Assembly: GCA_022736495.1 (NCBI GenBank)
Contig: DZCR01000123.1
Coordinates: forward strand, 1 to 10,070
Direction of reading: 5' to 3'
DNA: 10,070 nt
Origin: Desulfobacca acetoxidans
Lineage (GTDB): Bacteria > Desulfobacterota > Desulfobaccia > Desulfobaccales > 0-14-0-80-60-11
The position numbers and the translations under genes are program-made. Shown here piece after piece: positions 2,997 through 8,954 of the stretch. Positions within the stretch are counted from its first letter, which is position 1. The number at the start of each line of letters is the position of its first letter. The notes beneath the pieces were generated by a model that saw only the letters and a program-made list of their open reading frames with translations, was not told the DNA's origin and did not search any database.

Positions 2997-3389
2997 TCAG
3001 GCAGGAACAGGAAGTTCAGCTATCAGGCTGGACCCTGTTACCGACAGTGGCCCCTGGTGTTTCACTGCTTGCAACAGCTGAAGGGATTCAGCTACAAAAC
3101 GCCGGTAATGACATAGCCAATTGGTGCAGAGTCTCCCTATAAAAGGCGGTCAATTCTTTGCTCTGGAGTTTCAAGGCCGGGCAGTGGTGCAGCCCTCAGC
3201 CCAGTCACATCCCCGGATGAGCTGAGCTGGCTCAAGGCTGATGTGATGGCTCGACCGCCGGATCGCCCACCAGCCTGGACATACTCCCCACGAGTTTCAA
3301 GTCCTCGGCAGCCAGCGGGATGGTGCCGTCCGATGCGACTCAGGTGGAGGTTCACCAATGGCAGGCAGGCAAAGCTTTACCAAAAAATG
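2997..3389. other. Gene-poor stretch, no supported gene
   Basis: About 390 bp between the CysD-like remnant and the palindrome at 3390. The short frames on both strands (for example minus 3137-3358 and plus 3243-3509) have no recognisable motif, no convincing ribosome binding site and compositions typical of shadow frames. It may contain further decayed sequence from the upstream end of the remnant, but I could not recognise any. Confidence 0.5.
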
Positions 3390-3414
3390 GATTCCCAAGC
3401 TGAGCTTGGGAATC
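3390..3414. repeat. Palindromic dispersed repeat (TTCCCAAGCT family)
   Basis: Perfect 12-bp inverted repeat, GATTCCCAAGCT (3390-3401) and AGCTTGGGAATC (3403-3414), with one central base. The core TTCCCAAG/CTTGGGAA recurs in the palindrome at 5294-5320. Palindromes of this type are, to my knowledge, frequent between genes in several bacterial phyla and behave like REP elements. It lies 62 bp past the end of the PEP-CTERM-like gene and could also act as a transcript-end hairpin, although no T-tract follows it. Confidence 0.75.
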
Positions 3415-3475
3415 AGAGGGAAAAACAAGAAAGGCAAGGCCTTGGCTACCCCCAGACTTATGCCTTAATTGCTCA

Positions 3476-4165
3476 TCAACTCCAGGAAGCCAACTTGCGC
3501 CGCCGGTAGTTTGCCAGACACAAGAGACCAGCACCAAAAAGTAGCAGGGCGGAAGGGAGGGGAACCGGTGCCGCGGTATCAATCACTTGCCCTGTCACAG
3601 ACATAATGACGGTTTTATCAAAAGAGGTACTACCAGAACCATTTATTACCGGGATAACTATATCTCCATAGTCAAACCAAGCCCCACCATACCTGTAGCC
3701 GCCGTTAGCGATAAGATCGGCATCAGCAGACCCGTTTAAGATCGTGATTTCAGAGCCATTGTCAATCAGTTTAACATCCCAGCTAAGGTCAGTAAAACGG
3801 TTTGGTCCACTTTGGTCCAACGAACAAGAATAATTTGCTAACGTAACCCCTGGTAACGGGTAGTCACCATCGTAGAGAGGATAACCAGGAAACATTACGT
3901 AAAAAGTACTGTAGGACCCTTCAATGCGTGTAGTAATAGTAACTTGCTGGCTGAATGAACCTACCTCGGGATTAGGAAGATAGAAGGTATGTCCGAAGTG
4001 TCCTCCACTAGCACTCAGTGAAAAGGGCGCAGAAATCCCACGCTCCTCATTATAAAAAATGCCAACGCAATAAAAATCAAAGATTAAGGATGCCGCAGCA
4101 CCAGGCGCCCAAGAGAACACAAGCACCATTATCAAGCCCAACAAAAACCACCTCTGCCTTTTCAT
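3476..4165 (-). CDS. PEP-CTERM-like exported protein (VPLP variant)
   Basis: A 229-residue exported protein of unknown function. A signal peptide is clear: positive MKRQR, hydrophobic core at about 6-19, and a likely cleavage after AAA at about 23-25. The mature part is rich in G, S, T, Y and aromatic residues, like a beta-rich surface protein, and I recognise no catalytic motif. The C-terminus has the tripartite sorting signal of PEP-CTERM proteins: VPLP at 201-204 in place of VPEP, a hydrophobic span at 205-218 (SALLLFGAGLL), then basic RRRK at 221-224. Such tails are processed by exosortases, and the products go to the cell surface or extracellular matrix; no exosortase gene is in this window. 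The ATG has a GGAGAG ribosome binding site at 4171-4176, five bases away. Composition is clearly more AT-rich than the flanking genes. Its leader contains a GEMM-like riboswitch and terminator, so expression is probably ligand-controlled. It appears monocistronic. Confidence 0.85.
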   Translation of the reverse strand: MKRQRWFLLGLIMVLVFSWAPGAAASLIFDFYCVGIFYNEERGISAPFSLSASGGHFGHTFYLPNPEVGSFSQQVTITTRIEGSYSTFYVMFPGYPLYDGDYPLPGVTLANYSCSLDQSGPNRFTDLSWDVKLIDNGSEITILNGSADADLIANGGYRYGGAWFDYGDIVIPVINGSGSTSFDKTVIMSVTGQVIDTAAPVPLPSALLLFGAGLLCLANYRRRKLASWS

Positions 4166-4170
4166 AACCG

Positions 4171-4176
4171 CTCTCC
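4171..4176 (-). promoter_or_regulatory. Ribosome binding site of the PEP-CTERM-like gene
   Basis: GGAGAG on the minus strand, five bases before the ATG at 4163-4165. It fixes that start and lies just downstream of the leader terminator, so translation depends on readthrough of the terminator. Confidence 0.7.
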
Positions 4177-4192
4177 ATTAAATAAGATAATG

Positions 4193-4226
4193 AAAAAAGC
4201 CGAACTGCCATCTCAGGCAACCCGGC
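4193..4226 (-). terminator. Intrinsic terminator forming the riboswitch expression platform
   Basis: On the minus strand GCCGGGTTGCC (4226-4216) pairs over all 11 positions, three of them G-T wobbles, with GGCAGTTCGGC (4209-4199). The loop is TGAGAT and six T residues follow (4198-4193). It sits 27 bases before the ATG of the exported protein gene, so it would end the transcript before the gene. Its 5' arm is also the 3' strand of the GEMM-like aptamer, so aptamer folding and terminator folding exclude each other. The expected logic is ligand bound, terminator broken, gene ON. Confidence 0.75.
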
Positions 4227-4303
4227 TATCTGCTCTTCCTTGAAGAGACCCGTGGCTTTTTCCGTCCCCATCTTACGGTGGACTTGGCTTTTTGGTAAGT
4301 CTG
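4207..4303 (-). ncRNA. GEMM-family (cyclic dinucleotide) riboswitch aptamer
   Basis: Leader RNA resembling the GEMM family, which senses c-di-GMP (GEMM-I) or, in variants from Geobacter-like bacteria, 3',3'-cGAMP (GEMM-Ib). In order on the minus strand: a P2-like hairpin CCACC-GTAA-GATGG with a GNRA tetraloop and one C-A mismatch (about 4281-4268); the junction GGGACGGAAAAAGCC (about 4268-4254), close to the consensus GGGACGCAAAGCC; then P3 with ACGGG, an apical CTCTTC-AAG-GAAGAG hairpin (4247-4233), and a 3' strand TAGCCGGGTTGCC (4228-4216), close to the consensus TAGCGGGGTTACC. The GCC of the junction can pair with GGT of the 3' strand. The 5' segment is diverged from CAGGGCAAACC and I cannot assign the ligand-contacting base, so the ligand is not predicted. 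Identity rests on motif memory, not on a covariance search. Confidence 0.7.
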
Positions 4304-4658
4304 GGGCTAATCTATCCTTTTGCGTTCAGGAACCGGAACGGGGGGCTACCGCCTTCGCATGATGCTCAATCCCTGCAAAGTTTATCTAACGGGCCTCCGT
4401 GTTCCTACCGGTCTTCCTACTCATAAATTATCTGCATATATAATGCCATCTTCTTGAAAGCAAAAAAAACCCATATTGTTCAGTTTATTTAACATTGCAG
4501 GTTAGGTTCTTTAAATAATTATCTCCTTTGAATCAATACGTTTTTATAGAACTTCCTCTCTGACCATTCTGATTCTTTGTATTAAATTATTTTCTTAGGC
4601 TGTTCAATTATTTAAATTTTTATTTAATAATGAAACATATCCCAGCCCATAGGGTGCA
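4304..4658. other. Intergenic, AT-rich, no supported gene
   Basis: From the riboswitch to about 4400 the sequence holds the untranscribed or early-leader part of the exported-protein gene, where its promoter must lie; I see no confident -10/-35 pair. A short inverted repeat, CGTTC...GAACG at 4323-4340, is present. From about 4420 to 4640 it is strongly AT-rich with long A and T runs, unlike the GC-rich flanks, and no open frame of note is present. Confidence 0.5.
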
Positions 4659-4684
4659 GGTGGGAAAGCGCAGCGCATCCCGCC
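4659..4684. repeat. Palindromic dispersed repeat (GGTGGGA...TCCCGCC)
   Basis: Inverted repeat: GGTGGGA (4659-4665) against TCCCGCC (4678-4684), seven pairs with one T-G wobble, enclosing the palindromic core GCGC-A-GCGC (4668-4676). The wording AGGGTG...GGTGGGA...GCGC...TCCC resembles a widespread intergenic repeat family found in several bacterial phyla. Copy number in this genome cannot be judged here. Confidence 0.6.
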
Positions 4685-4775
4685 TTGAGCCTTATTCCAT
4701 TTCCAGACTCCGAACGTTATCATCCGCCGCCCCTAGCTAAATATTAAGGTAAAGCCCTCATATCCTTCCTCACCA

Positions 4776-4797
4776 GGTCAGGGGCGCCCCCCCGACC
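4776..4797. repeat. Imperfect palindrome, GGTC...GGGGCGCCCC...GACC
   Basis: GGTC at 4776-4779 and GACC at 4794-4797 enclose GGGGCGCCCC, itself a perfect palindrome, with three extra C on one side. It lies in a GC-rich gene-free stretch and could be a short protein-binding site or repeat. It has no T-tract, so it is not a terminator. Confidence 0.35.
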
Positions 4798-5293
4798 ACG
4801 CCCGCCCGAAAACCCCGTCATCCCTCCCAGCGCTTCTGGAGGCCGGCCCCATCCTGAGTTTATGATGCCCCCATGCCTTGCCGGAATAAAAGCGCCACAG
4901 TGTGGTCAACCCGTGGCAAACGAGACGGATTAAGCCGTTTCACCTGTGTCGCGTCCCGGCACAGACAGGCCCGTTCATCATGCATCACCTTGATATTCAT
5001 TACTAAATTTGGCGAGAACGGGATTTTACCCCCCGGCACAAGCCAGACACGACCGCGGCACAGGCTTGACCGCGTCGCGCCAACCACGCGGGTGCTGCCA
5101 GGGACGAGGGCGACAAGACCTCGCCATGGCCCGGCACGCGTCCCGGCCTTCCCCTGCTTACCCGGCACGCGGCCGGTCCTTTTCGGTGATTTTGGACGAT
5201 TTTTGGGCGATTTTTGGGGGCTAAATTGACGCGAAAACGAGGTTTATTTCCCTGTTTTTATGAAAACGTCGCCCCAGGCTTCATGCTTTCAAC
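4798..5293. other. GC-rich stretch, no supported gene
   Basis: Two opposed frames overlap here (plus 4873-5229, 118 codons; minus 4860-5168, 102 codons). Both are low-complexity in R, G, P and T, have no recognisable domain and no convincing ribosome binding site, so I do not call either. Visible elements are a short hairpin at 4922-4941 (GAGACGG/CCGTTTC with one wobble), five scattered CGGCAC hexamers (4957, 5034, 5056, 5132, 5163), and the 11-bp tandem array at 5188-5219. Confidence 0.5.
5188..5219. repeat. Three tandem GATTTTTGG units of about 11 bp
   Basis: Direct repeats GATTTTGGAC (5188-5197), GATTTTTGGGC (5198-5208) and GATTTTTGGGG (5209-5219). The 10-11 bp period puts the T-tracts on one face of the helix, which would favour intrinsic bending. 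No gene starts close by except the far end of yifB, so function is unknown. Confidence 0.6.
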
Positions 5294-5320
5294 TCGTTCC
5301 CAAGTTGCACTTGGGAACGA
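5294..5320. repeat. Palindromic dispersed repeat, copy 2 (TTCCCAAG family)
   Basis: Perfect 12-bp inverted repeat, TCGTTCCCAAGT (5294-5305) and ACTTGGGAACGA (5309-5320), with loop TGC. It shares the TTCCCAAG/CTTGGGAA arms of the palindrome at 3390-3414 and is followed after three bases by a second hairpin. Together they resemble a composite REP-like unit. It lies about 60 bp beyond the end of the yifB-like gene. Confidence 0.75.
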
Positions 5321-5323
5321 AAA

Positions 5324-5349
5324 TGACTGCCAAGCTCGGCTTGGCGTCA
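5324..5349. repeat. Second hairpin of composite palindromic repeat
   Basis: GCCAAGC (5329-5335) and GCTTGGC (5339-5345) with loop TCG, extended by TGAC (5324-5327) and GTCA (5346-5349) across a one-base bulge, giving 11 pairs. Adjacent to the palindrome at 5294-5320. It lies 28 bp past the yifB-like stop and could terminate that transcript, though it has no clear T-tract on the minus strand. Confidence 0.65.
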
Positions 5350-5377
5350 AGAGAGGGCGTTGAAAAAAATGCGGCTT

Positions 5378-6901
5378 TTAGAACTTCCGATCCATCGTCC
5401 TATACTGGATGGCTTCGGCGACGTGGGCGGGGGCGATGCCCCTCTCCCCTTCCAGGTCGGCGATGGTGCGGGAGATCTTGAGGATACGGTGGTAGGCCCG
5501 GGCGGAGAGCCCCAGGCGCTCCATGGCGGTCTCCAGCAAGCGCTGGGCCTCGGGGCCCGGGACGCAATGCTGCTTGATGAGCCGGGGCGGCATGTAGGCG
5601 TTGGCAAAGATGCGGGTTTTCTGAAAACGCTGGGTCTGAATCTCTCGGGAGATCACCACCTGGCCCCGCAGTTCGTTCGAGCCTTCGCCCGCCTCCGGCG
5701 CGGCCAGGTCTTTAAAGGGCACCGCGGGCACCTGTATCTGGATGTCGATCCGGTCCAGGAGCGGGCCGGAGATGCGGGAGCGGTAGGAGTTGATCTGGTT
5801 GGGGGTGCAGGTGCAAACCCGTTTGACGTCCCCGTAAAAGCCGCAGGGGCAGGGGTTCAGGGCCGCCACCAGCATGAAGCGGGCCGGATAGGTCAGCGAG
5901 GTGGCCGCCCGGGAGATGGTCACCTTGCCCTCTTCCAGGGGCTGGCGCAGGACCTCCAGGGTGGAGCGGCGGAACTCCGGCAGCTCGTCCAGAAACAGCA
6001 CGCCGTGGTGGGCCAGGCTGACTTCGCCGGGCCGGGGGATGGTGCCGCCGCCGATGAGGCCGGCGTCCGAGATGGTGTGGTGGGGCGAACGGAAGGGCCG
6101 CCGGGGCACCAGGGCCTGACCGGGCCTTAACCGCCCCGTGATGCTGTAAATCTTGGAGGTCTCCAGGGCCTCTTCGAAACTCCAGGGCGGCAGGATGGTT
6201 CTAAGGCATCGCGCCAGCATAGTCTTGCCGGCGCCGGGCGGGCCCACCATGAGGACGTTGTGGCTGCCTGCGGCGGCGATGAGTAAGGCCCGTTTCACCG
6301 GCTCCTGGCCCCGGACCTCCCGGAAGTCTTCCTCAAAACGGGGTGCCGGGGCCAAAAGCTCCGGCGTTTCCGGGACCATGGCCGCCAGGGGCTCCCGGCC
6401 GTTTAAGAACTCCACCACCTGGGAGAGGTGCTCGGCGGGGTAGATGGCAATCCCCTGGACCACCCCGGCCTCCTTGGCGTTGGCTTTGGGGATGATGAGG
6501 GCAAGACCCGCCTCCCGGGTGGCCAGGGCCATGGACAGCACCCCCCGGGTGGGCTTGAGGCGACCGTCCAGGGAAAGTTCGCCGTAGAGGAGATAATTCT
6601 CCGGGGCCTCCGGGGGCACCAGTCCCTGGGCGGTCAGGATACCCACCGCCGCGGGCAGGTCGAAGCCGGTGCCTTCCTTGCGAATGTCGGCAGGGGCCAG
6701 GTTGATGGTTACCCGGTTGCCGGGGAACTTGTAGCCGGAGTTTTTCACCGCGGCCTTGACCCGGTCTTTGCTCTCTTTGACTGCGGTTTCGGGCAGGCCT
6801 ACGGTGGTAAAGGCGGGCAGCCCCGGGGCCAGGTCCACCTCCACCTCGACGATGTAGGCATCCACCCCCAACAAGGCCCCGCTTTTTACTCTGGCCAGCA
6901 T
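5378..6901 (-). CDS. YifB/ComM-family Mg-chelatase-like AAA+ ATPase
   Basis: Complete 507-residue protein, the usual length for the family. ComM, the studied member, is a hexameric helicase that aids branch migration during integration of transformed DNA, while many homologues are uncharacterised. N-terminal ChlI/Lon-like fold: MLARVKSGALLGVDAYIVEV with VGLPETAVKESKDRVKAA and later KEGTGFDLPAAVGIL. AAA+ core: Walker A GPPGAGKT at 220-227 (K226) and Walker B VLFLDELPE with D305-E306. A cysteine-rich NPCPCGFYGD...CTCTP stretch leads into ISGPLLDRIDIQIQV, and the C-terminal helical Mg-chelatase domain ends near LSARAYHRILKISRTIADLE. The ATG has a GAGGAA ribosome binding site about five bases upstream. 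The gene follows the beta-flower gene after a 102-bp gap in the same direction. All catalytic motifs are intact. Confidence 0.95.
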   Translation of the reverse strand: MLARVKSGALLGVDAYIVEVEVDLAPGLPAFTTVGLPETAVKESKDRVKAAVKNSGYKFPGNRVTINLAPADIRKEGTGFDLPAAVGILTAQGLVPPEAPENYLLYGELSLDGRLKPTRGVLSMALATREAGLALIIPKANAKEAGVVQGIAIYPAEHLSQVVEFLNGREPLAAMVPETPELLAPAPRFEEDFREVRGQEPVKRALLIAAAGSHNVLMVGPPGAGKTMLARCLRTILPPWSFEEALETSKIYSITGRLRPGQALVPRRPFRSPHHTISDAGLIGGGTIPRPGEVSLAHHGVLFLDELPEFRRSTLEVLRQPLEEGKVTISRAATSLTYPARFMLVAALNPCPCGFYGDVKRVCTCTPNQINSYRSRISGPLLDRIDIQIQVPAVPFKDLAAPEAGEGSNELRGQVVISREIQTQRFQKTRIFANAYMPPRLIKQHCVPGPEAQRLLETAMERLGLSARAYHRILKISRTIADLEGERGIAPAHVAEAIQYRTMDRKF

Positions 6902-7003
6902 GGGGTTCCTCTAAAACTAAAAAGCCTGGGCCACCAACTTCTGGCTGCCTGGCATTCGGGGGAGTATGGCTGGTAGCGCAGGACTGCCTGGGCCACGGTA
7001 TGG

Positions 7004-7366
7004 TTAGCGCGGACCTTCCGCTTCCAGAAGATCTTCCAGATTTTTGTTGGAGTAGCCGTAACACAAGATCGGTTTGATCATCTGGGATTGTTTCTTCCCC
7101 TTGGCCGGTCTGAGATGTTTCTGGGACTTGAGCGGTTCCATCTCGGTGGCTATGGGGGATTTACTTTTAATAAAACCGGCCCGCAGGCCGTAGATATCAA
7201 AGATGGTGCCGTTATGAAACCAGCCCAGTTGTCGGCCATGCCAGCTGTAGACCTTGTCCTCGGAGAGATAGGCCACCGGGCGGCCATCCCAGAGATGGAT
7301 GGTCTTACCGTCATCGGCGATATAGGCTACCGGCTTGCCATTCTTGTTGAACAGGGTAATTTCCAT
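7004..7366 (-). CDS. Small four-repeat beta-flower-type protein
   Basis: A 120-residue protein of unknown function. The first two thirds are four short repeats with the pattern x-G-(K/R)-x-(V/L)-(A/G)-(Y/W/F): GKPVAYI, GRPVAYL, GRQLGWF and GLRAGFI, separated by DDGKTIHLWD- and SEDKVYSWH-like strands. This matches the 4-fold beta-flower fold, a compact four-bladed beta structure with no known activity. A lysine-rich tail and a helical end (NLEDLLEAEG) follow. No signal peptide or membrane segment is seen. I chose the ATG at 7364-7366 (MEITLFNKNG) because AAGGAG lies nine bases upstream (7376-7381) and the repeats begin there. A longer reading from the ATG at 7403-7405 adds 13 residues without clear homology. 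It lies between the CoA-binding and yifB-like genes and may be co-transcribed with them. Confidence 0.75.
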   Translation of the reverse strand: MEITLFNKNGKPVAYIADDGKTIHLWDGRPVAYLSEDKVYSWHGRQLGWFHNGTIFDIYGLRAGFIKSKSPIATEMEPLKSQKHLRPAKGKKQSQMIKPILCYGYSNKNLEDLLEAEGPR

Positions 7367-7375
7367 GTAATCCAG

Positions 7376-7381
7376 CTCCTT
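7376..7381 (-). promoter_or_regulatory. Ribosome binding site deciding the beta-flower start
   Basis: AAGGAG on the minus strand, nine bases before the ATG at 7364-7366. It lies inside the longer reading from 7405 and favours the shorter 120-residue protein. Confidence 0.6.
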
Positions 7382-7436
7382 ACCGGCAAACAGGTGGGCA
7401 TCCATTCAGGCTCATTGCCAAAGGGATTTTCAAGCA

Positions 7437-7503
7437 CCTCTCACCCCAACCCTTTCCCTCAAGAGAATCGGAAAGCAGAGGAAAAAACTTGAGGCAATCG
7501 CTC
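7437..7503. repeat. Degenerate dispersed repeat, copy A
   Basis: Fills most of the gap between the beta-flower and CoA-binding genes. The series CTCACCCCAACCCTTT, GAGAATC, GGAAA and GGCAATCGCT recurs in the same order and orientation at 8955-9018. The opening CTCACC-AACCCT block resembles a widespread intergenic repeat, with only one arm preserved. Confidence 0.5.
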
Positions 7504-7505
7504 TG

Positions 7506-7934
7506 TCACTGCTGATGGCGCTGGTAATGCTCGATTGTCATACAACGGTTCATGACCACGCTCAGGCCAGCCTGCCTGGCTTTGTGGGCCGCAGCCGGTT
7601 CTTCCAGGCCCTGCTGCATCCAGACTGCCTTGGCCCCCACCGCGATGGCCTCATCTACGATCCCGGGGATGGCCTCGACTTTGCGAAAGATGTCCACGAC
7701 CTCCACCGGGAATGGGATATCCCGGAGGGTGGCATAACACTTTTCTCCCAAAATCTCCCGGCAGGCGGGATTGACCGGCACGATGCGGTAACCGTGCTCC
7801 TGCAGATAGCGGGCTACTCGATAGCTGGGCCGGTCGGGATCGGCGGACAACCCCACCACCGCCACCACCCGGTGATTATCCAGAATGTCGGTAATTTCCG
7901 TGGCGCTGGCCTGAATCTCTGATGGTGTGGTCAT
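7506..7934 (-). CDS. CoA-binding protein, YccU-type
   Basis: A 142-residue stand-alone CoA-binding (Rossmann-fold) domain, like E. coli YccU and the N-terminal part of acyl-CoA synthetases. Its physiological role is unknown. The glycine motif VVAVVGLSADPDRPSY (about 23-38) is followed by RVARYLQEHGYRIVPVNP, the beta strand and nucleotide-contact end (VNP) typical of the family. The middle has EVVDIFRKVEAIPGIVDEAI and a VGAKAVWMQQGL strand, and the protein ends with the conserved NRCMTIEH motif (129-136). This is full length for the family. The ATG at 7932-7934 has a GAGGG ribosome binding site about six bases upstream. It follows the YkgJ-type gene after 76 bp, so co-transcription is likely. 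Confidence 0.9.
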   Translation of the reverse strand: MTTPSEIQASATEITDILDNHRVVAVVGLSADPDRPSYRVARYLQEHGYRIVPVNPACREILGEKCYATLRDIPFPVEVVDIFRKVEAIPGIVDEAIAVGAKAVWMQQGLEEPAAAHKARQAGLSVVMNRCMTIEHYQRHQQ

Positions 7935-8010
7935 GGCGGCCCTCGTGGCTCCTCAGGAAAACCTTGCGACAACAGGCAGGGAGAAAGGCTCCCGGCCCCG
8001 CCGGCAGGGT

Positions 8011-8808
8011 TCAGAAGGTCATGGTCGTGGCGCCGGGGCCAACCGGCTGCGCCAGATTCAGGGCATCCGCATCTGCGATCTTCAGGGCCATTCTGATGTA
8101 CTGATAGCCGAACTTCAGGAGTTCCTCGTCATCGTCCCAGATCTTCTCCCGGACATCCTCATCCACATTGAAGATGGTCAAAAAGCGGCTCTTGAAGACG
8201 AAGTTCCGGAACTGGTCCAGGTCATACATAACCATGGCAAAAAGCCGGTTGCCCCGCTCGTCGGTGACCGGCCCGCCATCTTCGGCCCGGCGCAGCATCA
8301 TAATCTTCCATTCCCGGTTCATCTCGTCATACTTATCCACGCCCTGGTCTTGCCGCCAGGTAGCGACGGTCCATTCCGCCTCCTCTTCGTACCCGCAGCA
8401 ATGTTCTTCCCGCACGAAGAAATAGAATTCATCCAGGCCTTCGTCGGTGATAAGGGTGCCCTGTCCGACCGGATAATAGCGGCAAGAGGCCGGGCGGTCG
8501 CTATAGACCGAGCAGCCAGCAACGGGTCGCACAAAGGGGCAGCGGTTTTCAAACCGGGGCATATCCATAATGACCATGGGGAGGCCCGATTTGTCATGGT
8601 TTTCCATCCGGGTATATTTGGCCAGAAAGTCCGCGGCCTTCATGTTGAGGCGGTTTTTCAGACGCAGGATATCATAGGGGGTGAGGATGATGGTGGTCTT
8701 GCCGCAGCACTCGGTGAAGCAAGATATCCCCGGATAACACCGGAATTTGAAGCGGCTCTCCGGGGTCAATTTCCGGGGCTCCACCACCCGCATATTCAAA
8801 TCTACCAT
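8011..8808 (-). CDS. YkgJ-family cysteine-cluster protein
   Basis: A 265-residue cytosolic protein of the YkgJ family (putative zinc- or iron-chelating, Fe-S-type cysteine cluster), whose biochemical activity is not established. Nine cysteines lie in the family arrangement: C24, C30 and the pair C34-C35 in FRCYPGISCFTECCG, then C90, C99 and C109 in RCPFV...GCSVYSDRPASCRYYP, and the pair C137-C138 in EEHCCGYEE. The hallmark LTPYDILRL follows the first group. The rest is an acidic alpha-helical tail of about 120 residues that is longer than in the shortest family members. Start ATG 8806-8808 has AAGGAG six bases upstream. It is the first gene after the qmo terminator and heads the group of four minus-strand genes. 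Confidence 0.88.
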   Translation of the reverse strand: MVDLNMRVVEPRKLTPESRFKFRCYPGISCFTECCGKTTIILTPYDILRLKNRLNMKAADFLAKYTRMENHDKSGLPMVIMDMPRFENRCPFVRPVAGCSVYSDRPASCRYYPVGQGTLITDEGLDEFYFFVREEHCCGYEEEAEWTVATWRQDQGVDKYDEMNREWKIMMLRRAEDGGPVTDERGNRLFAMVMYDLDQFRNFVFKSRFLTIFNVDEDVREKIWDDDEELLKFGYQYIRMALKIADADALNLAQPVGPGATTMTF

Positions 8809-8842
8809 GTTCTACTCCTTACGGTTTTTCTTGCCAATGACT

Positions 8843-8871
8843 ATCTTATCAAAATTTTGCCCAAATAAAAA
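8843..8871 (-). promoter_or_regulatory. Possible sigma-70-type promoter of the YkgJ-type gene
   Basis: TTTTTA (8871-8866), 17 bp, then TAAGAT (8848-8843) on the minus strand, in an AT-rich patch about 35 bp before the start codon. The -10 element is fair and the -35 poor, so this is only a plausible candidate. Confidence 0.25.
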
Positions 8872-8954
8872 TCTTATAATAAGGTTATGAACCGCGGACA
8901 TTTTCATCTTTTTGCTTAGTATCTTTGCCCGGCTTTCAGGTGAGGCCTCATTTT

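Follow-up and report, generated by a model that had tools for sequence, protein, structure and literature searches.

The pilM riboswitch of Geobacter metallireducens is described in the accessible text of PMC9262584 as a transcriptional ON switch for c-GAMP, and the same text treats the base at position 20 of the aptamer as one that influences ligand choice without acting as an absolute filter. In Desulfobacca acetoxidans, according to the available portion of PMC9481103, probed aptamers 1 and 2 strongly prefer c-di-GMP, aptamer 3, with a change in its pocket, has gained affinity for c-AMP-GMP, and ON switching is predicted for these aptamers. The authors of that work speculated on conductive pili, and the main text mentions neither PEP-C nor exosortase. 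In Methylophaga nitratireducenticrescens GP59, c-di-GMP riboswitches flank one VPLPA-CTERM gene and three PEP-CTERM genes (PMC12530212, available in part). Here we describe a leader on the minus strand of a 10,070-nt stretch of DNA, called the window throughout, in which a c-di-GMP-I match and a terminator share a strand; we put at roughly three in four the probability that c-di-GMP binding blocks this terminator and thereby turns on a PEP-CTERM gene.

The leader (4303–4193, minus strand, to which all coordinates of the leader and its gene refer) matches the c-di-GMP-I (GEMM) family, in agreement with the initial annotation, which had proposed a GEMM-like riboswitch here. With gathering thresholds applied, the Rfam model RF01051 (c-di-GMP-I/GEMM) matches 4298–4213 over model positions 1–87 with 54.8 bits against a gathering threshold of 35 (E = 3.6e-10), and the family assignment is also favoured by compensatory changes, most of them in P2, seen across relatives. 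RF03167 (c-di-GMP-I-GGC) matches 4297–4212 with 57.4 bits (E = 1.1e-11), just missing its gathering threshold of 59. When the entire window is compared with 4227 Rfam families, RF03167 is the sole match listed at E ≤ 1, the tool having dropped two weaker hits within the same clan. The leader also folds more stably than its own shuffles (z = −2.65).

Within the aptamer (4298–4213), the cmscan alignment places P2 at 4287–4262, closed by a GTAA tetraloop of the GNRA type at 4276–4273, and P3 at 4257–4219, where 4257–4247 pairs with 4230–4219 below an apical part. P2 covaries in relatives, and the pairs of P3 are kept in them. The junction GGGACGGAAAAAGCC lies at 4268–4254, and TAGCCGGGTTGCC, the end of the P3-like stem, at 4228–4216; the GNRA-capped hairpin, the junction and the stem end on which the initial annotation had based its assignment were all located. 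The foot of P2 consists of C4287–G4262 and C4286–G4263, which makes the window copy a member of what we call the C-G subtype. That RF03167 is the top-scoring model would suit a member of the GGC variant class with a possibly altered ligand, but its score falls under gathering and the conserved G of the model's GCGAA, presumably the source of the GGC class name, is A in the window and in the displayed C-G-type relatives. We regard this class as highly improbable for the window aptamer and, with 57.4 bits lying below 59, set it aside. Upstream, a search for a second riboswitch (4290–4720, Rfam, E ≤ 10) gave just two chance-level matches, far under gathering, and the segment 4298–4440 folds no better than shuffles (z = 0.05).

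The ligand-selectivity position of the window copy is G4288 in the alignments, which we take to be Vc2 G20, a numbering that agrees with the A found there in aptamer L209, and C4217 aligns with what is presumably Vc2 C92, equivalent to pilM C75. Both bases are present in the alignments to RF03167 and to RF01051. For the equivalent of A47, an A after P2 is present, with two extra A leaving its position ambiguous. With G at position 20, and by analogy with published probing of relatives, c-di-GMP is predicted as the ligand over cGAMP. We take the probed D. acetoxidans aptamers to be L163, L202 and L209, the last of which carries A at the selectivity position; the probing, as given in the accessible part of PMC9481103, supports a rule by which G or A at this position sets the ligand. 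The RF01051 scores of these three aptamers are 53.0–54.7 bits, and that of the window copy is alike at 54.8.

A cGAMP (c-AMP-GMP) switch of the GEMM-Ib type would account for the C-G P2 foot that the window has in common with copies L092, L095 and L097 of Geobacter sp. AOG1 (ACT / GG), and for the same shared-strand terminator layout, which these copies also display. The base that marks that type speaks against it, however: position 20 is A in L092, L095 and L097, as in GEMM-Ib generally, and G in the window. An A20G change converts a cGAMP aptamer to c-di-GMP (PMC6456294, accessible text), and G copies of the same order prefer c-di-GMP (PMC9481103, accessible part). We have set cGAMP aside on account of this G and consider such a switch very unlikely here. 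Elsewhere in the order, L212 is a C-G-type aptamer that does have A at the selectivity position and stands before a PEP-CTERM-like gene; from its sequence it is predicted to be a cGAMP-leaning copy.

Behind the aptamer, an intrinsic terminator hairpin is predicted at 4227–4198 (12 pairs, −17.6 kcal/mol), with a run of six T at 4198–4193. The first T of the run (4198) also closes the terminator stem, and 27 nt separate the last T from the ATG at 4165; the terminator, the six T and the spacing stand as first annotated, and the pair count is 12 rather than the 11 given there. The 5′ arm of the terminator (4227–4216) is the 3′ strand of P3 together with the joint behind P3, and C4217 is paired inside the hairpin. 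The arrangement is thus of the pilM type, in which one strand, ligand-pairing C included, serves both as the 3′ strand of the aptamer and as the 5′ arm of the terminator. Because the same nucleotides (4227–4216) build both, aptamer P3 and the terminator are mutually exclusive, and the terminator switch that the initial annotation had suggested is supported by this shared strand and by its recurrence in relatives. Binding of c-di-GMP would keep the 3′ strand within the aptamer; held there, the strand would be withheld from the terminator, and the PEP-CTERM gene would be turned on. Abundant c-di-GMP would then mean gene ON, by the kind of transcriptional ON control that has been published for pilM. 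The ON direction is likely, given the mutually exclusive pairing and the pilM precedent.

Folding of the growing transcript favours this reading in part: P3 pairing lasts to roughly 4203, and at 4200 and 4197 the most stable structure contains the terminator. When the transcript ends anywhere from 4194 to 4173, the most stable structure instead joins AAAAAGCC (4293–4286) to GGCTTTTT of the terminator and leaves the terminator open. Such pairing, by this copy of AAAAAGCC or by a second copy at 4261–4254, would make the element an OFF switch or a site of constitutive antitermination. It requires, however, that the T tract already be transcribed, and in the two longest transcripts folded the terminator is back in the best fold. 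We read the AAAAAGCC/GGCTTTTT fold in these models as a late alternative, though it counts against the simple picture, and find an OFF switch or constitutive antitermination barely credible.

The window copy nonetheless has peculiarities that bear on whether its aptamer still works. It alone has a run of five A at J2/3 (4261–4257), in 1 of 154 aptamers, the 153 others compared having four at most; this amounts to two extra A. P2 carries one C·A mismatch (4278/4271) and an A-to-G change in the AAA of its internal loop. In its canonical form P2 is 4.1 kcal/mol less stable than the best fold of its segment, which ranks the window 42nd of the 45 leaders of alignment A4 (described below), tied with L230, in a comparison whose energies are unreliable for rows that MAFFT may misplace (for example, L165 and L227). 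In the standard register, P1 has one pair in the window versus two to four in 43 of the 53 C-G-type relatives among the matches listed; a CAG at 4303–4301 might, speculatively, form P1 with the CTG at 4216–4214, which would leave a 12-nt J1/2.

These features invite the explanation that the aptamer has decayed: the terminator would work, the aptamer would bind poorly, and the gene would be mostly off or leaky, its control by c-di-GMP lost. The P2 mismatch with its preference for a misfold, an A run at J2/3 that is the longest of all compared and the single standard-register P1 pair, against two to four in most relatives, all speak for decay. Yet the G20 and C92 equivalents, the GNRA loop, GGGACGG and the P3 core are all retained, and the RF01051 score of 54.8 resembles the 53.0–54.7 of the D. 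acetoxidans aptamers taken as probed. On balance we consider decay unlikely and prefer the c-di-GMP ON switch.

Relatives of the leader were surveyed in the order to which the host probably belongs. The YifB encoded in the window is 89% identical to that of genome G029, and the best ten YifB genomes of 297 searched all come from one order, the likely order of the host. Scoring of 109 first-look candidates per genome gave at least 92 RF03167 matches, in 25 of the 29 genomes of this order. Subtypes were assigned from the 3′ base of the P2 foot pair, with L191 and L212 set by hand, and the matches listed split into 53 of C-G type and 39 of G-C type. To count as an overlapping terminator, a hairpin had to have 6 or more pairs, reach −8 kcal/mol or lower, start at least 8 nt inside the aptamer and be followed by a T tract. 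By this definition, 49 of the 53 C-G-type aptamers among the matches listed have one, versus 2 of the 39 G-C-type aptamers; shuffled-downstream controls gave 41/265 and 16/195, respectively. The overlapping terminator of the window, taken alone, is only moderately improbable against chance: when the 90 nt behind the aptamer were shuffled 500 times, 38 of the shuffles gave one of at least equal stability. It gains weight because 49 of the 53 relatives among the matches listed have such a terminator versus 41 of the 265 shuffled controls.

The genes behind the two subtypes also differ. Among the matches listed, a PEP-CTERM-like tail is carried by 20 of the 46 genes scored behind C-G-type aptamers, by none of the 26 behind G-C-type aptamers and by 3 of 272 other ORFs. 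PF07589 is found at E ≤ 0.01 in 10/46 and 0/26 of the same genes, and the products behind the G-C type include TadE (11 of 26), Tad (9) and Flp_Fap (4). The tail pattern is our own; its first version found 17, three were added by eye, and a widened pattern returned the same 20. The choice of ORF was mechanical, giving a scored gene for 46 of the 53 and 26 of the 39 aptamers; for the others, often located at a contig end, no ORF of at least 70 aa begins within 450 nt. The fetched stretch ends before the C-terminus in 7 of the genes behind C-G-type and 3 of those behind G-C-type aptamers, and these were counted as misses. Only 5 genomes contain all 20 genes with the tail, and an exosortase match occurs in four of these genomes; the Fisher's p of 2e-5 overstates independence because the tails are concentrated in this way. 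As for the three background tails, one sits inside the D. acetoxidans array and two beside yifB in L242. A wider phylum sample comprised 57 genes, nine of them Pfam-scanned, and among these nine L089 and L100 (Desulfoluna spongiiphila, G016) pass PF07589. In the likely order, the C-G subtype almost invariably overlaps a terminator, and the gene behind it is often PEP-CTERM-like.

The survey yielded some further observations. L184, L188, L189, L192, L206 and L223 stand before similar proteins of 183–190 aa with a related C-terminus, all behind C-G-type aptamers. On contig 15 of G029 (46700–47060), L174 and L181 form a tandem of C-G-type aptamers; both have an overlapping terminator of their own, and the gene that follows them encodes a PEP-CTERM-like tail. 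Behind another aptamer, the ORF at L130:1633–2178 (plus strand) lacks the tail and a VPLP-like tail lies in another frame, possibly owing to an assembly error. As to conserved synteny, G029 shares window 5381–8880 and lacks the riboswitch region at the same place, where no orthologous leader was found; this counts against the proposed switch. A stretch of the window at 4659–4704 occurs twice, over 42–46 bp, in the related contig L241 (10930–10971 and 11787–11832, with 93% and 87% identity) and is a dispersed, REP-like repeat.

Comparative analysis of the leaders drew on alignment A4 (MAFFT), which holds 45 leaders in 44 distinct rows, namely the window and 44 of the 53 C-G-type relatives among the matches listed. 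It omits L173, L178, L188, L220, L225, L229 and L233, in which an overlapping terminator is absent or its T tract lies over 24 nt beyond the aptamer, and also L221 and L231. Across the 18 aptamer pairs, 96.7% of cells are standard versus 92.6% in shuffles. Cells changed on both sides number 31 versus 6.6 in shuffles, a count reached by 0 of 500; they fall mostly in P2 (5 of the 6 upper pairs), with 1 of 10 pairs in P3. The compensatory changes among relatives that the initial annotation had made a test of its proposed stems are thus present, mainly in P2. For the 12 terminator pairs, 88.5% of cells are standard versus 87.0%, and 12 cells are changed on both sides versus 4.1 (0/500); the terminator pairs changed on both sides number 4 versus 2.4, which 88 of 500 shuffles reach. 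Covariation of the terminator pairs is modest.

The gene behind the leader (4165–3476) encodes a 229-aa protein with the tail VPLPSALLLFGAGLLCLANYRRRK, preceded by GGAGAG at 4176–4171, a likely ribosome-binding site. PF07589 (Pfam PEP-CTERM) scores 23.1 bits over a cut-off of 20.7, in keeping with the PEP-CTERM-like protein first annotated, and TIGR03370 (NCBIfam VPLPA-CTERM) scores 16.8, under its cut-off of 25.35. The PEP-CTERM tail is likely a cell-surface sorting signal and, with a signal peptide judged by eye, the product is likely exported and exosortase-sorted. Exosortase matches occur in 9 of the 29 genomes of the order, among them the close relative G029, which has one, together with 7 GGDEF matches. 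The 229-aa protein has two database relatives, one of them nearly identical and encoded on a 42-kb JGI contig, which makes it likely that the window derives from a metagenome; within the order, only its C-terminal stretch is matched, in 5 of the 29 genomes. A single-gene unit, as already proposed, is likely because a terminator-like site of 11 pairs (3414–3390) follows the gene. No promoter-like site was found in 3300–5400, a point against the proposed switch. The predicted fold of the read-through RNA lets the U tract base-pair with GGAGAG, the likely ribosome-binding site (4197–4171), which may provide a second layer of control. On the plus strand, a gene for a large sensor histidine kinase with GAF and PAS domains (2–2689) converges on the PEP-CTERM gene.

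The window probably holds a c-di-GMP ON switch, and the pattern seen at the level of regulons merits further attention. The P2 foot pair offers a simple sequence rule that separates two c-di-GMP RNA subtypes, and the genes behind them suggest a direct tie of c-di-GMP signalling to exosortase-sorted surface proteins in relatives of sulfate reducers. One joint reading of these observations, which we advance only tentatively and with some doubt, is that c-di-GMP governs two RNA-coded regulons in the order of Desulfobacca, split by the P2 foot pair. C-G aptamers with a strand-shared terminator would turn ON surface proteins sorted by exosortase; G-C aptamers, which have other platforms, would control Tad/Flp pili. 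The riboswitch logic cluster of D. acetoxidans, published but unexplained, would be the best-studied representative of the first regulon, and in the window member the enlarged J1/2 and J2/3 may have retuned the affinity.

Methylophaga is a gammaproteobacterium, unlike the relatives of Desulfobacca considered here. Strain GP59 nevertheless shares with the window the placement of c-di-GMP riboswitches beside VPLPA-/PEP-CTERM genes (PMC12530212, accessible part). The link between such a riboswitch and a VPLP-tailed protein, which the initial annotation had thought might be new, was therefore already in print, and relatives of the aptamer had been probed in D. acetoxidans (PMC9481103, accessible part). 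For relatives of Desulfobacca, no prior report of PEP-CTERM genes as riboswitch targets was found in the open-licence literature, as far as its text is available.

In mechanism the window resembles pilM, where the 3′ strand of a GEMM-I aptamer lies within a terminator that sequesters the ligand-pairing C (PMC9262584, accessible text). It differs from pilM in two respects: pilM senses c-GAMP, whereas the window copy has G at position 20 and is predicted to respond to c-di-GMP, and the window copy precedes a gene with a PEP-CTERM tail.

Finally, the D. acetoxidans cluster of AdoCbl, c-di-GMP-I and c-AMP-GMP riboswitches differs from the window in its tandem arrangement with AdoCbl riboswitches, the window having one aptamer and no other Rfam family above chance. 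In the D. acetoxidans stretch L255, Rfam finds four c-di-GMP-I and three cobalamin riboswitches, in line with the published cluster as described in the available text of PMC9481103. Seven plus-strand ORFs with VPxP tails lie among and behind these riboswitches (L255:1970–10051). None of the seven reaches a curated PEP-CTERM cut-off or has a Pfam match above cut-off, and six weakly match the tails of PEP-CTERM families. The cluster has in common with the window the same likely order, the C-G P2 subtype and a predicted ON direction (PMC9481103, accessible part). It lies among the VPxP-tailed ORFs, and the PEP-CTERM-like tails in which the ORFs among and behind its riboswitches end supply a plausible output for it.
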